Assembly (NCBI RefSeq): GCF_018919395.1
Contig: NZ_JAHLME010000004.1
Span: 372,001-436,000 of the forward strand
Source: Geomonas azotofigens
Lineage (GTDB): Bacteria; Desulfobacterota; Desulfuromonadia; Geobacterales; Geobacteraceae
DNA: 64,000 bases
Direction of reading: 5' to 3'
The position numbers and the translations under genes were made by a program. Below, piece after piece: positions 7,862 to 64,000 of the stretch (positions are counted from its first letter, which is position 1; every line of letters starts with the position of its first letter). The notes under the pieces were generated by a model, which was not told where the DNA came from, searched no databases, and was given only the letters and a program-made list of their open reading frames with translations.

Positions 7862-7865
7862 AACA

Positions 7866-8007
7866 CGTTCTATGTTCTACGTTCTAAGTTCTACGTTAAC
7901 CCCGCAAACCATGACTGTGCGGTGTCTTTCAATGTAGTACCGCGACACGCAGAACGCCAACGAGTTAAAGCCGTCAACGTAGAACATAGAACATAGAACG
8001 TAGAACG
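7866..8007. repeat. GTTCTAC heptad inverted repeat, copy 1 (sucA-sucB gap)
   Basis: The left arm (7866-7900) is built of GTTCTAT/GTTCTAC/GTTCTAA heptads. The right arm (7973-8007) is the reverse complement in AACGTAG/AACATAG heptads. They enclose about 70 nt of unrelated sequence. The arms match over roughly 35 nt with a few differences, so the transcript between sucA and sucB could form a long stem. Two further copies of the same design occur at 45041-45147 and 48026-48158. There is no open frame or transposase-like content. Confidence 0.85.
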
Positions 8008-8032
8008 GCTTTTAAAGAGAAGGGAGAAGCGC

Positions 8033-45040: not shown

Positions 45041-45147
45041 GGTTCTACGTTCTGTGTTCTACGTTGACCCACAAGTAGGGAACTAGGAGTCGGAACATAG
45101 AACTTGAGAACTTAAAACTAGAGCTTTGAACGTAGAACGTAGAACGT
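45041..45147. repeat. GTTCTAC heptad inverted repeat, copy 2 (before cheA)
   Basis: The left arm GGTTCTACGTTCTGTGTTCTACGTTGA occupies 45041-45067 (written here by its span and key GTTCTAC words). The right side has GGAACATAGAACTTGAGAAC (from 45091) and AACGTAGAACGTAGAACGT (to 45147). It fills most of the gap between the CheY-like gene and cheA. It is the same family as 7866-8007 and 48026-48158, but the right half is more degenerate. Confidence 0.85.
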
Positions 45148-45167
45148 CTTCTTAAAAAAGAGAGTCT

Positions 45168-48025: not shown

Positions 48026-48158
48026 CGGTTCTCTGTTCTACGTTCCAGGTTCTACGTTAACTGACAGAACCGCCTTTGCGCTTGCCGCGTCGCTGGGATT
48101 GCCTGGAGAGCGGACACCGGAAACAAACGTAGGACATAGAACATAGAACGTAGAACGG
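48026..48158. repeat. GTTCTAC heptad inverted repeat, copy 3 (before cheW)
   Basis: The left arm (48026-48060) contains CGGTTCTCTGTTCTACGTTC and CAGGTTCTACGTTAA. The right arm (48125-48158) contains AAACGTAGGACATAGAACAT followed by AGAACGTAGAACGG. They enclose about 64 nt. It lies between the ExeA-like ATPase and the first CheW gene. Confidence 0.85.
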
Positions 48159-48171
48159 ATGTTGAGGTTTT

Positions 48172-55871: not shown

Positions 55872-55901
55872 TCAGCTGTTGCAATGGGGGATACAGGTCA
55901 G

Positions 55902-56279
55902 ATGTCAGATTACAACGTATTGATAGTTGAAGATTCACCCACCATGAGGCAGCTCATCGCGTTTGCGCTGAAGCGGATCAGGGGGGTGCGGATAGTCGAG
56001 GCCAACGATGGTGTTGACGGGTTGAAGAAGCTCTCCTCGGAGCGTTTCGATCTGATCCTGACCGACATCAACATGCCGATCATGGACGGTCTGAAGTTGG
56101 TCAGTCTGGTGCGCAACGATGCCAACTACAAGGCTATACCGATCGTGGTCATCACCACCGAAGGTGCGCAGGAAGACCGGGAACGTGCCTTGGCGTTGGG
56201 AGCCAACGACTACATCACCAAGCCGATTCAGCCGACCAAGATTCTGGACGTGGCCAAGAACCTGCTTCGGATCGTCTGA
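55902..56279 (+). CDS. CheY-like response regulator
   Basis: This 125-aa receiver has VLIVEDSPTMRQL, acceptor Asp55 in ILTDINMPIMDG, the VVITTEG switch and the ITKPIQP lysine. It is CheY-like in length and in the SPTMR motif, and resembles the receiver at 44667. The frame opens at 55884, but the ATG at 55902 gives the normal CheY length and has AGG close by. It is the last gene of the chemosensory cluster; a G+C palindrome and then the 9-bp tandem array follow. Confidence 0.92.
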   Translation: MSDYNVLIVEDSPTMRQLIAFALKRIRGVRIVEANDGVDGLKKLSSERFDLILTDINMPIMDGLKLVSLVRNDANYKAIPIVVITTEGAQEDRERALALGANDYITKPIQPTKILDVAKNLLRIV

Positions 56280-56415
56280 CCGGTTTCCGGTTGTGCTCCT
56301 CCCCTTGAGGGGGGAGGCAGGGGGGGGCGGTGCCTGCGGGCGCCCCGGTGCTGAACCGTCCCATGCGTCCCTGAGTCTCCAGTTCACGACCGTGGCCTCC
56401 ACCGGGCCCGCCGGG

Positions 56416-56592
56416 TCCACCAGGTCCACCGTGTCCACCGTGTCCACCGTGTCCACCGTGTCCACCGTGTCCACCGTGTCCACCGTGTCCACCGGGTCCA
56501 CCGGGTCCACCGGGTCCACCGGGTCCACCGGGTCCACCAGGTCCACCGGGTCCACCAGGTCCACCGGGTCCACCAGGTCCACCAGGTCCACC
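56416..56592. repeat. Perfect 9-bp tandem array, 20 copies of TCCACC + 3 nt
   Basis: TCCACC recurs every 9 bp exactly 20 times from 56416 to 56592. The 3-nt separators come in blocks: agg once, gtg seven times, ggg five times, then alternating agg and ggg, ending agg. A closing CCACCAGGTGG palindrome follows. Frames through it would read Ser-Thr-Val/Gly or Val-Asp-Thr repeats, but no start with a ribosome binding site exists, so it is taken as non-coding. It lies between the last che gene and leuS in a 407-bp gap. Confidence 0.9.
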
Positions 56593-56686
56593 AGGTGGTG
56601 CCGTTCAAACACACCATCCGCAACCGCAGCGTTGCCGACATTAAAATATTGCGCGTCCCGTTTGGGGCGCTGGAAGGCGGGGTTTA

Positions 56687-59161
56687 ATGGAAGAAAAATA
56701 CGTTCCCTCAGCAGTAGAGGGCAAATGGCAGCAATTCTGGGCTACGCACAACAGCTTCAAGGCGACTGAAGACGCCGCTCGCAAGAAGTACTACCTCCTG
56801 GAGATGTTCCCCTATCCCTCCGGCAAGATCCACATGGGGCACGTCAGGAACTACTCCATCGGTGACGTCATCGCCCGCTTCAAGAGGATGCAGGGGTACA
56901 ACGTGCTGCACCCGATGGGTTGGGACGCCTTCGGCATGCCGGCGGAAAACGCCGCCATCCAGAACAAGAGCCATCCCGCCAAGTGGACCTACGAGAACAT
57001 CGCCTACATGCGCGGCCAGCTGAAGCGCCTGGGCCTTTCCTACGACTGGGACCGCGAGCTCGCCACCTGCGACCTCGACTACTACAAGTGGGAGCAGAAG
57101 ATCTTCCTGGAGATGTACCGCAAGGGGCTCGCCTACAAGAAGTCCTCCGCCGTCAACTGGTGCCCCAAGTGCGAGACCGTTCTTGCCAACGAGCAGGTCG
57201 AGGACGGCTGCTGCTGGCGCTGCGATTCCATGGTCCAGCAGAAGGAGCTGGAGCAGTGGTCCTTCCGCATCACCAACTACGCGCAGGAACTCCTGGACGA
57301 CACCTACAAGCTCACCGGCTGGCCGGAGCGCGTGCTGACCATGCAGCGCAACTGGATCGGCCGCTCGGTCGGCTGCGAGATCGACTTCCCGCTCGAGAAC
57401 GGTCTCGGCAAGATCAAGGTCTTCACCACCCGTCAGGACACCGTGTTCGGCGCGACCTTCATGTCGCTGGCCGCCGAGCACCCGCTGGCGCTCGACCTGG
57501 CGACCGCCGGGCAGCGCGCCGCCGTCGAGGCCTTCATCGACAAGGTGAAGAAGACTGACCGCATCAAGCGCTCCGCCGAGGACCAGGAGAAGGAAGGCGT
57601 CTTCACCGGCTCCTACTGCGTCAACCCGGTCACCAACGTGAAGATGCCGATCTATCTGGCCAACTTCGTCCTCATGGACTACGGCACCGGCGCTGTCATG
57701 GCCGTTCCGACCCACGACCAGCGCGACTTCGAGTTCGCCAAAAAGTACGACCTGCCGCTCAAGGTCGTGATCCAGCCCGAAGGGGAAACCCTCGATCCCG
57801 CCACCATGACCGAGGCCTACACCGCCGACGGGATCATGGTCAACTCCGGCCGCTTCGACGGCATGGGCAACGCCGACGCCAAGGAAGCCATCGCCGACTT
57901 CCTTGAGAAGGAAGGGATCGGCAAGAAGACCGTCAACTTCCGCCTGCGCGACTGGGGCATCTCCCGCCAGCGCTACTGGGGCAACCCGATCCCGGTGATC
58001 AACTGCGATCTCTGCGGCGTGGTCCCGGTCCCGGAAGCGGACCTTCCCGTCGTGCTCCCGATGGATGCCGAGTTCACCGGGGAGGGGGGCAACCCGCTGG
58101 CGCGCGTGGACAGCTTCACCACCTGCACCTGTCCGCAGTGTGGCGAGGCCGCCCGCCGCGAGACCGACACCATGGACACCTTCGTGCAATCCTCCTGGTA
58201 TTTCCTGCGCTACTGCTCCCCGAAGTTCACCTCCGGTCCGCTGGACCGCGAGCAGGTCGAGCACTGGATGCCGGTGGACCAGTATATCGGCGGCATCGAG
58301 CATGCCGTTTTGCACCTGCTCTACGCCCGCTTCTTCACCAAGGTGCTCAGGGACCTCGGCTACTGCAACGTCGACGAGCCCTTCTCCAACCTCCTGACCC
58401 AGGGGATGGTGATCAAGGACGGCGCCAAGATGTCCAAGTCCAAGGGGAACGTGGTCGATCCCAACGCACTCATCGAGCGTTACGGCGCCGATACCGCCAG
58501 GCTCTTCTCCCTCTTCGCGGCACCCCCGGAGAAGGACCTCGACTGGAGCGACCAGGGCGTGGACGGCAGCTACCGCTTCCTGAACCGCGTCTGGCGCCTG
58601 GTGTACGACGTGCTCCCGGCGATCAAGCAAGCCGGCAGCGTGCAGGTGGACAAGCTCTCCGCGGACGGGAAGAAGCTGCGCCGCGCGGTGCACAAGACCA
58701 TCAAGAAGGTTTCCGAGGACGTCGAGGACCGCTTCCACTTCAATACCGCCATCGCCGCGGTCATGGAACTGGTCAACGCCATCCAGGGCTTCGCCGGCAA
58801 GGACGCCCCGGAGAACGTGGCCGTGGTGCGCGAGGCGGTGGAGTCGGTGGTCCGCCTCTTGGCCCCCTTCGTGCCGCACTTCGCCGAAGAACTCTGGGCC
58901 GAACTCGGCCACGAGGTGGCTCTCGAGCAGGCCGGCTGGCCCGGTTATGACGCCGACGCCGTGGTCGACGAGGAGATCACCGTGGTGATCCAGGTGAACG
59001 GCAAGCTGAGAAGCAAGCTCACCGTCGCCCCCGACGCCAAGGAGGACGATGTCCGCGCCGCCGCGCTGGCGGATGACAAGATCCTTCCCTACCTGGAAGG
59101 GAAGAGCGTCAAGAAGGTCGTCTACGTCCCCGGCAAGCTGGTCAGCATCGTCGTCGCCTAA
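56687..59161 (+). CDS. leuS: Leucyl-tRNA synthetase
   Basis: This complete class I synthetase of 824 aa has the HIGH motif as [12 protein letters not shown] near residue 45, the KMSKS motif as [11 protein letters not shown] near residue 580, and the LeuRS zinc region [21 protein letters not shown]. The CP1 editing domain (about 220-420) has [13 protein letters not shown] and the conserved [15 protein letters not shown]. The anticodon-binding and C-terminal domains are intact. GGAAGGCGGGG precedes the ATG. There is no T-box-like leader; the upstream gap is the 9-bp tandem array. lptE and holA follow, the usual order in many proteobacteria. Confidence 0.98.
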
Positions 59162-61343: not shown

Positions 61344-61457
61344 GTGTCCATCGTGTCCATCGTGTCCATCGTGTCCATCGTGTCCCCGTGTCCACCGTGT
61401 CCACCGTGTCTGTCCACAGCACAGGGTCCCCCAGTCCTCCAAGTCCCCGTGTCCACC
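61344..61457. repeat. Short relative of the 9-bp tandem array
   Basis: GTGTCCATC-type units occur four times at exact 9-bp spacing (TCCATC at 61347, 61356, 61365, 61374). TCCCCG, TCCACC, TCCACC follow, and a decayed tail contains more GTGTCCACC. It is the same strand and same core as 56416-56592. No gene crosses it; it lies between divergent rpsT and the methyltransferase. Confidence 0.8.
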
Positions 61458-62457: not shown

Positions 62458-63849
62458 CTACCAATCTTCCTTCTGCTTCTTGGCCAGCTTCTCCATGAAA
62501 AGCTCCGGAGAGGTCAGCTTCAGGATCTCCTTGTCGGTGTAGCCCAGGTCCTTGAAGTTCAGCACCCCGTTGGGTGCGTGGCAGTTGGCGCAGTAGAGTG
62601 CCTTGGTCTTGGTGACCAGGTGGTTGCTGCCGAAATAAATGGTCTGCCACCCCGGCACCGCCTCCTTGGCGATCTTCTCGGGGTTCTTGAGCCCCAGCGT
62701 CTTGGCCGCCGAAAGAACGCCGGCGCGGGTGTCGCCGTCGGACATCGGCTGGGCGAAATCCATGGAGAGGAGCTCGCCGGTCTGCTTGTTGTAGTAGGCC
62801 TTGCCCTGGAAGATCTTGAACGGCGTGATCTTGCTCTTGCCGTCCTTCTTGCTCCCCTTGGGGCCGATGAAGTGCGGGGTGTTCTTCACGGTGCCGTTGT
62901 ACCAGGCGTAGACCGGCGCGGTCTCGTTGGCCTCCTTCTTCAGCGTGGTCGGCTCGTAGAATTTGTCCGGCGTCTGCTCCCACACCGTGAAGTCCTTGGC
63001 GAAGGCGCCGCCGGTGCGCGGGATGTGGCAGGTCTGGCAGGCGATCTTGGCACAGTGGCGGTTCAAGTCGGCGTCCTTGTGCGGCTTGACACCGTGGCAG
63101 GAGGTGTCGGCGCAGGAGACGAAAACGCCGTCGTTGGCCCAGTTGTTGGGATCGTGGCCGGTCGGCATCTTGTGGTTCTTCGCCTTGTGGCAATCGACGC
63201 AGACGAGGCCCTTGGCGGCGTGGGCATCGGTCTCCCTGGTGAAGGTGAAGCCGCGCTTGACGATGACGCCGCCGCCGGCCGCCTCGTGACAGACCATGCA
63301 GTTCTTGACCGTCGGCTTGCCGATGGCGAGGGCTGCCTTGACGCTACGGTCCTGCCCCATGACCACCTCGCCCTTCTCGTTCTTGAAGGGCTTTCTCTGG
63401 CGGAAATCGTAGTCGGTGGAGTGGCAGACCAGGCAGTCGACGGCGGCCTCGGCCGCGGCGCCGGTACTGCCGACGTCGGAGAGGTGATTGCCGGGGTGGC
63501 AGGTGTTGCAGCCGGAGAACTTGCTCTTGCCCGTCACCGGGCTCTTGGGGATCTCCTTCAGGTTGTTGACGATGTCGTTGCCGTTGCACATGACGTAGAT
63601 GCGGTTCTTCATCCCGTACTCTTCCTTGGGATTGAGCCCATCGACGTTGGTCACCTTGGATGCGTGCTTCCAGTGCACGGTATCCAGGAACCCCTTGGCG
63701 CTGCCGGGGTGGCACTCCTCGCAGGTCTCCGGCCCCTTGTAGCCGCTTTTCTCGATCGATTCCTTGCCCGGATGCGCGCCTGCCGCCAAGGCGGTCGTGG
63801 CCGCCAAGGCGAGGCAGAACACTGCCGCTGTCACACGTATCTTACTCAT
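62458..63849 (-). CDS. Periplasmic eight-haem c-type cytochrome
   Basis: The precursor has 463 aa with a signal peptide of about 23 residues (ending ALAAG). Seven CXXCH sites lie at residues 43-47, 114-118, 139-143, 184-188, 217-221, 271-275 and 420-424. An eighth haem site at 246-252 is the rarer CX4CH form (CADTSCH). Extra His residues for distal ligands are plentiful. The uneven spacing, with a 145-residue gap before the last haem, resembles catalytic multihaem enzymes such as octahaem tetrathionate reductase-like proteins more than simple wires; this is inference. AGGAGGGG lies 6 nt before the ATG at 63849, so the longer frame to 63891 is rejected. Confidence 0.9.
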   Translation of the reverse strand: MSKIRVTAAVFCLALAATTALAAGAHPGKESIEKSGYKGPETCEECHPGSAKGFLDTVHWKHASKVTNVDGLNPKEEYGMKNRIYVMCNGNDIVNNLKEIPKSPVTGKSKFSGCNTCHPGNHLSDVGSTGAAAEAAVDCLVCHSTDYDFRQRKPFKNEKGEVVMGQDRSVKAALAIGKPTVKNCMVCHEAAGGGVIVKRGFTFTRETDAHAAKGLVCVDCHKAKNHKMPTGHDPNNWANDGVFVSCADTSCHGVKPHKDADLNRHCAKIACQTCHIPRTGGAFAKDFTVWEQTPDKFYEPTTLKKEANETAPVYAWYNGTVKNTPHFIGPKGSKKDGKSKITPFKIFQGKAYYNKQTGELLSMDFAQPMSDGDTRAGVLSAAKTLGLKNPEKIAKEAVPGWQTIYFGSNHLVTKTKALYCANCHAPNGVLNFKDLGYTDKEILKLTSPELFMEKLAKKQKEDW

Positions 63850-64000
63850 CGAAGCCCCTCCTGTTGTCTTTGGTGGCTGTCCCTTACTCATTCATCGTTA
63901 TCGGCACACCAGGATAATAGTTTAGTGTTTTGCCGAGGTATGTCGAGCACTTCGTCGCGACAATTTTCCGGCTCGTCTTGTGTCAATGCGCCTGCCGCTG
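63850..64000. other. Upstream region of the octahaem cytochrome
   Basis: No gene is seen in the last 150 bp. On the minus strand TCGACA with TAAACT at 16 bp (about 63923-63950) is a weak promoter candidate for the cytochrome. A consensus TTGACA is also present further up (about 63980) without a good -10 at the right distance. Confidence 0.3.

Follow-up and report, generated by a model that had tools for sequence, protein, structure and literature searches.

The 20-unit array of 9-bp repeats upstream of leuS in Geomonas azotofigens is probably (we put this at about 0.7) a solitary member of a 9-bp repeat family, in which the core GTCCA is followed by four freer bases and whose cognate is an S23/Avd-like four-helix protein with a suffix domain (TIGR04258). 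The original prediction had treated the array as a local feature; instead, it is one member of a dispersed, gene-associated family. Below, the window means the whole 64-kb stretch of DNA that was analysed.

The array upstream of leuS

The following features of the window concern the 9-bp repeats and leuS.

55884–56279, + strand: ORF upstream of the leuS array, which from its translation we take to be a CheY-like receiver
56416–56592, + strand: 20-unit 9-bp array, core GTCCA, unit GTCCACCnn
56597–56686, + strand: leuS leader, downstream of the array, similar among the nearest congeners
56687–59161, + strand: leuS, downstream of the array
61346–61455, + strand: second array of 9-bp units, 4 x GTCCATCGT followed by GTCCACC units of degenerate sequence

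TCCACC returns at every 9 bp from 56416 to 56592 with no interruption, giving 20 perfect GTCCACC-nn units. The phasing is thus as perfect as first described, and the 18 overlapping three-unit matches in the window (equal to 20 units) compare with 0 in 100 dinucleotide-preserving shuffles of it. TRF places the boundaries at 56398–56596, with degenerate outermost units. The separators run agg, seven gtg, five ggg, agg and ggg in alternation, and a final agg; the block-wise order reported earlier (gtg, ggg, then alternation) is correct as to the blocks, except that one agg precedes the gtg block. A four-unit TCCATC array had also been noticed nearby, and four GTCCATC units are indeed present at 61346–61382, with degenerate units on to about 61455. 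This array and the leuS array have the core GTCCA in common, and they are two of the five 9-bp runs in the window. Further along, an ORF on the − strand (62458–63891) contains many CxxCH motifs and probably encodes a multihaem c-type cytochrome.

A coding reading of the leuS array was considered and rejected: ORFs cross it on both strands, but the ORF lists are mechanical. We take the array as intergenic because of its flanking genes and because the site holds few or no units in relatives. It is not a CRISPR array either, as its separators are 2–4 bp long and a CRISPR would have unique spacers of at least 20 bp. An effect of the array on leuS expression had been suggested as well, and nothing in this analysis points to such a dependence. 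The array ends 94 bp before the leuS start, outside the leader common to close congeners. As candidates for the array, known RNAs, promoters and terminators were also rejected, with no Rfam match within the 64-kb window, no sigma-70-like promoter match in 56200–56760, and the sole terminator-like site found lying inside leuS. RNA folding of 141 array bases was no better than that of shuffles (z 0.95).

The leuS upstream regions of 19 genomes (the own genome and 18 congeners) were compared. The site has four regular units followed by irregular ones in one congener (G011), two adjacent units in three (G001, G010 and G002), one or two isolated units in three (G013, G005 and G018), and TCCCA-type units at the equivalent position in four (G006, G007, G009 and G015), while the remaining seven genomes are without repeated units of the GTCCA or TCCCA kind. 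In G011 (L224), GTCCACC continues at wider spacing, GTCCACCAAAG, after the four 9-bp units, and repeat spacing can therefore drift. Differences in array length at the leuS site are thus seen at the species level in the 19 regions. Slippage or unequal exchange, the origin first suggested for the array, is supported both by the blocks in the sequence and by the zero to a handful of units at the orthologous site in the 18 congeners. From these differences we infer that repeats of different types have come to occupy the site more than once and that the array reached 20 units only recently.

The repeat family and the suffix gene

The original prediction proposed a genome-wide search for TCCACC-n3 arrays as a check, and a search with a looser pattern recovered many arrays. 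In the own genome (4.97 Mb, 18 contigs), 99 matches to GTCCA-N4-GTCCA-N4-GTCCA were obtained, compared with 2 for the backward pattern, and by our clustering they form 14 sites, the leuS array among them. At least three of these sites fall within long ORFs (L062, L064 and L067). Throughout the arrays compared, GTCCA is constant and the next four bases vary. Among the matches listed, five-unit arrays occur in Geomonas, Geobacter, Geomesophilobacter, Lentisphaerota, Hydrogenedentes, Verrucomicrobia, Actinobacteria and others, and several array loci are inverted pairs with a gap.

One inverted pair of the own genome (L065) led to a candidate protein partner, since it lies inside an ORF, with a domain of the 23S rRNA IVS protein family (TIGR02436/PF05635) on one side and TIGR04258, the 'four helix bundle suffix domain', on the other. 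The L065 ORF scores 68.6 bits for TIGR04258 and two further proteins 70.5 (L110) and 61.4 (L151), all over the curated cut-off of 40 bits; Pfam on the three proteins scanned gave PF05635, plus Collagen for one. There are two TIGR04258 genes above cut-off in the own genome, which are also its only two TIGR02436 matches. One, the presumed cognate of the leuS array, is located at G000:C1:771286-772089. The second (L194, G000:C1:1022894-1026037) has TCCCA-core arrays at or before the ORF start, and the TCCCA pattern has 24 hits in this genome versus 8 for its backward control. Given an upstream start, the L194 array could be read as an N-terminal His-Asp-Ser repeat. The core of the 9-bp arrays at the L065 gene occurs elsewhere too, GTCCA being present at 13 further sites of the own genome. 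In Geomonas, the array is within the loop preceding the suffix helix, where a 9-bp unit keeps the reading frame; the Lentisphaerota protein L151 (65% identical) has arrays on both sides of its gene.

Across the genus, all 29 suffix-gene loci have a 9-bp run (one 5-mer occurring three or more times at 9-bp steps, within some 1.5 kb; a weak TIGR04258 fragment, L217, was left out of an initial 30), and the core varies from gene to gene. GTCCAYC triples are present in 12 of the 19 genomes, own included, and all 12 carry TIGR04258; all three gene-less genomes are without a GTCCAYC array. Counting against the link, four genomes bear TIGR04258 without a GTCCAYC triple. GTCCAYC matches are more numerous in genomes with a GTCCA-core gene than in the other members of the genus (p 0.001; p 0.005 without the gene-less genomes; post hoc rank tests with gene-borne arrays counted in), G018 and G006 being exceptions. 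Likewise, TCCCA matches are commoner where the gene is TCCCA-type (p 0.005, post hoc rank test), but TCCCA-type arrays also occur in G001 and G005, both without TIGR04258, which counts against the link.

The association extends beyond the genus. In a sample of 395 phylum genomes, evenly drawn and including the own genome, the suffix domain was found in 52 at E 0.001 (50 over cut-off), four-unit GTCCA arrays in 23, and, by our reading, matches to the backward control pattern in 4. The suffix gene is carried by 20 of the 23 array genomes (one of them, G279, below cut-off) versus 32 of the 372 others; the Fisher value (p 8e-17) overstates the evidence, because loci that share a genome or come from closely related genomes do not count as independent. 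By our reading of the lists, an array lies at most 1 kb from the suffix domain in 16 of the 20, and the three array genomes without the gene (G033, G236 and G372) count against the link. Named genomes gave at least 115 array stretches, and 50 loci led to 49 genomes that were searched for TIGR04258. It was present in 19 of the 49, which also counts against the link, and the other 30 include two MAGs in which arrays are paired in inverted orientation (L083 and L096). One Methylobacteriaceae MAG (2.6 Mb; L083, L095, L124, L140 and L154) is rich in GTCCACC arrays, some of which form inverted pairs, and TIGR04258 was not found in it; gene loss, a missing contig or another protein may be the cause. 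The L151 suffix protein had no match in the phage collection and one among plasmids, in Prevotella.

Unit length and protein subclass

Four-helix genes with TIGR02436 and no suffix (solo genes, S23) had been chosen to serve as the negative control when 9-bp arrays were counted. Unexpectedly, they proved to have period-7 arrays, and this outcome altered our reading. Among 113 pooled suffix loci, the period is 9 in 76 and 7 in 6, whereas 51 pooled solo loci have period 7 in 27, period 8 in 9 and period 9 in 6. By set, period 9 is found in 29/29 suffix loci of the genus, 31/60 of the phylum (60 of the 73 over-cut-off matches outside the own genome, by our count) and 16/24 of other named genomes (six repeats of genus loci removed from 30). 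The figure of 31/60 for the strict run outside the genus counts against the rule. Period 7 is found in 15/23 solo loci of the genus (those of 30 without a suffix) and in 12/28 of other genomes (two suffix genes removed from 30). Arrays of 6-bp and 8-bp units are present at some solo genes, and the rule of unit length is therefore a tendency: 9 bp with the suffix, and mostly 7, sometimes 8 or 6, without it. Units longer than 9 bp are also seen: one suffix locus (L216 in G016) has a long 10-bp-period array next to its 9-bp array, and 10-bp runs occur at a few further suffix loci (L359, L363 and L364).

Runs totalling at least 32 bp in 9-bp units were found at 29/29, 21/60 and 16/24 suffix loci in the same order of sets, at 0/23 and 2/28 solo loci, and at 6/11 loci of a leuS paralogue that served as another control. 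The six paralogue loci with a run (L242–L244 and L248–L250), which come from six genomes, read GCACCTGCC and similar, apparently an Ala/Pro-rich coding stretch. This result counts against the specificity of 9-bp runs, and because 6 of 11 paralogue loci have one, a single run is little proof; the argument is carried by the contrast with solo genes of comparable genomes, by the inversion of the pairs and by the cores held in common. In the 42 suffix loci whose core bears no label, identical 6-mer pairs peak at spacing 9 (80 pairs; 6–48 at other spacings). We give this looser test little weight, because spacing 9 also leads at the paralogue loci (28 pairs, 11 loci). Where solo loci have 7-bp arrays on both sides, 15 of 16 pairs are inverted and 1 is direct.

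Three gene-less pairs of 7-bp arrays lie in the window itself, their ends set by eye.

7864–8011: inverted 7-bp array pair, gene-less (GTTCTAC/GTAGAAC), between two ORFs
45041–45149: inverted 7-bp array pair, gene-less, core GTTCTAC/GTAGAAC
48028–48160: inverted 7-bp array pair, gene-less, core GTTCTAC/GTAGAAC

The same core also flanks a solo four-helix gene of a congener (L334 in G015).

Core sequence, protein tree and fold

The 5-bp core follows the suffix-protein tree across phyla. The tree was built with FastTree only, from 98 suffix proteins (15 of the 113 loci gave no protein by our motif), and core labels, set after the cores were seen, were given to 62 rows and withheld from 36. The GTCCA label, borne by 28 rows that come from the genus, from further families of its phylum and from additional named genomes, requires one change, at support 100, and the TCCCA label (9 rows) likewise one; TCCCT and GATC require two each, and GTCnG, which pools several motifs in 16 rows, three. 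Taken together, the seven labels need 8 changes on the 62 rows, close to the minimum of 6 and far from the shuffled mean of 30.5, with 0 of 200 shuffles as low. Such clustering would also be expected if the arrays were simply carried along with the gene. Nevertheless, the core is kept across long protein distances where the free bases are not, and it occurs at other sites, which together favour recognition. The suffix protein may thus recognise the repeat core, as DNA or as RNA. The original prediction had offered protein binding as an alternative to a role in leuS expression, and binding is the favoured reading because the core tracks the protein clade.

The L151 suffix protein was modelled from a two-row alignment (mean pLDDT 71), and the model matched S23 structures best (2gsc, Z 13.2, rmsd 2.0, 109 aligned; 2rld, Z 13.1) and then Avd of diversity-generating retroelements, DGRs (8ub7, Z 11.4; 4dwl, Z 11.2); Z values of about 11–13 can be common among helical bundles, and S23 and Avd rows top the list. 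By HMM, the sequence family of the suffix protein is S23. A solo protein matches 2gsc by sequence, and a sequence-only search with the suffix protein gave no S23 structure match. The alignment of the model covers residues from about 16 to 170 and so extends into the suffix helix (143–175), and the suffix is therefore probably a displaced fourth helix of the S23/Avd fold.

Plasmid elements and empty sites

Solo genes on plasmids were selected by protein similarity alone and examined with 1.2 kb flanks (9 of 15 listed, out of 20 records matched; 8 cyanobacterial and 1 Riemerella). Within 300 bp of the gene, the period is 7 in 8 of the 9, 8 in one and 9 in none, and the lone plasmid suffix gene, that of Prevotella, has period 9. 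Several of the solo genes split one functional group, namely cas6 and cas4 (twice), cas10 and cmr3, and both ribonucleotide reductase subunits. L404, L406 and L409 are solo genes that lie within CRISPR-Cas clusters of cyanobacterial plasmids and are accompanied by heptamer or octamer arrays.

Empty sites were sought by searching plasmids with four occupied loci, which gave six alignments at five insertion sites, all of the 7- and 8-bp class. The solo gene and both heptamer or octamer arrays make up a single insert of about 0.4–0.5 kb that is missing in relatives: Picosynechococcus 7003 compared with 7002, Nostoc ATCC 53789 pNsp_c with two Nostoc plasmids, Aulosira with Tolypothrix, and Nostoc edaphicum with Calothrix. 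The remaining site is on pNsp_a, where a different solo gene is found one gene away within the same cluster. Some junctions are ragged, and no target duplication is clear by eye in the six alignments. The contrast between insert and empty site may alternatively reflect deletion. The 9-bp class may be mobile as well.

Discussion

The findings can be joined in one scheme. The S23/Avd-like suffix protein would recognise the repeat core, and the unit length would reflect the geometry of the protein oligomer. Paired arrays would be the ends of a mobile element that carries the four-helix gene alone, and gene-less pairs and solitary arrays would be its derivatives. The leuS array would have been seeded upstream of leuS in this way and then grown by slippage or unequal exchange. 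With a confidence only somewhat better than even, we extend this scheme to S23/Avd-like proteins in general, as the sole gene of a large, so far unrecognised mobile class with inverted short-repeat arrays as ends. Whether the units are of 7 or 8 bp, or of 9 bp with the displaced fourth helix, would depend on the protein subclass, and the core on the protein clade. Much heptamer and nonamer minisatellite DNA of Geobacterales, Cyanobacteria, Lentisphaerota and other groups would consist of gene-less or solitary remains of such elements, and rRNA IVSs would be copies that landed in rRNA. We know of no recombinase activity of the S23 fold, and this counts against the mobile-element reading.

Several known systems resemble parts of this one. 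According to the excerpted text of PMC4990558, 23S IVSs are small, with one four-helix S23 ORF and inverted ends, as in the present elements, and the S23p ORF of the Coxiella IVS is preceded by strain-variable tandem heptamers. An S23 ORF inside the element is likewise found at the solo loci and at gene-bearing suffix loci. However, IVSs sit in rRNA helices, while the arrays and genes described here sit between protein genes; in the window, the arrays are between protein ORFs and no Rfam match was found. The gene-less dispersed copies and the 9-bp class, in which the fourth helix is displaced, are also unlike IVSs. The leuS array itself has no S23-type gene.

REP/REPIN sequences and RAYT genes form another such system, with many dispersed non-coding repeats and a single cognate gene per family, and the likeness to the present family is in that arrangement. 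The RAYT is, however, a Y1 transposase and REPs are single hairpins, whereas here the gene is S23/Avd-like and the repeats are 7–9 bp tandem arrays; no Y1 match was obtained by Pfam in the three proteins scanned. The likeness to DGR Avd is one of fold (4dwl and 8ub7). Cyanobacterial STRRs are similar intergenic tandem heptamers. Heptamers such as TAACTGA were described in Beggiatoaceae and Cyanobacteria, with the remark that 'no mechanism is evident' (PMC4679880, in excerpt); they are likewise intergenic, tandem, patchy across phyla and perhaps spread horizontally. The excerpt contains none of the terms 'S23', 'four-helix' and 'intervening sequence', whereas here heptamers flank S23 genes. Paired octamer and heptamer arrays of Geobacter metallireducens, with tandem short units, opposite-strand pairs and many copies, were proposed by Aklujkar et al. 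to be global regulator sites, in the excerpt without a gene link (PMC2700814), whereas the present arrays are linked to a gene. Other excerpts describe tandem repeats in Bacillus that keep their size while their sequence varies (52 or 20–21 nt; PMC8161180) and four-helix proteins among genes unique to strains (PMC8700078). No report joining four-helix or S23 genes to dispersed tandem repeats was found among the matches listed, a search of titles and abstract openings with subscription journals mostly outside it. The heptamers, S23 genes and IVSs are already known; the gene-repeat system appears to be new.

An RNA-level element like the 23S IVS, in which paired arrays form a transcript hairpin that is excised or shields a joint and is bound by an S23-like protein, is a tentative possibility that we hold at clearly less than even odds. 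It is a sub-case of the mobile-element scheme, with RNA bound instead of DNA. The three heptamer pairs of the window each fold as one long RNA hairpin stem (z −7.0 for 7864–8011, −2.35 and −1.74 for the others), elements are flanked by genes on the same strand, cas6 and cas4 for example, S23 ORFs are found in IVSs (PMC4990558, in excerpt), and Avd is part of an RNA-protein complex by the entry title of 8ub7. The leuS array is single-armed, however, and 141 of its bases fold no better than shuffled sequence; moreover, the free bases of 7864–8011 differ between the arms without compensation (by eye), and the L408 element is on the strand opposite to its neighbours.

It is unlikely that the leuS array is a plain minisatellite, grown by slippage from a chance GTCCACC seed, with the other arrays arising likewise and the four-helix gene a passenger. 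The block-wise separators suit this origin, slippage requires no protein, several congeners, including the gene-less G001 and G005, have at most two units in a row at the leuS site, and coding 9-bp runs of different make-up exist in the genus. Slippage alone, however, does not fit the excess of 99 matches over 2 for the backward pattern, a GTCCA that stays constant although the next four bases vary, the existence of inverted pairs, unit length and core that follow the protein, or a gene present in 20 of 23 array genomes. Least probable is a cis-regulatory array of global-regulator sites tuning leuS and other genes, for although the array repeats one short core, follows a stop codon and precedes the leuS leader, and although such a role was proposed for the G. 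metallireducens arrays (PMC2700814, in excerpt), the leuS site across the genus has 20, few, one, other-core or no units, and some arrays are within long ORFs.

In the excerpted literature, tandem heptamers had no known source (PMC4679880) and S23 proteins 'no known function' (PMC4990558), and the link between heptamers and S23 provides the first testable role for both. The pairing of protein and repeat comes with a readable code, in which the clade corresponds to the core and the subclass to the unit length. Should the elements prove to move, they would form a mobile class for which no recombinase is known, and their mode of movement would become a concrete question. In addition, sequence-specific reading of a 5-bp core at a fixed spacing might make such a protein useful as a tool.
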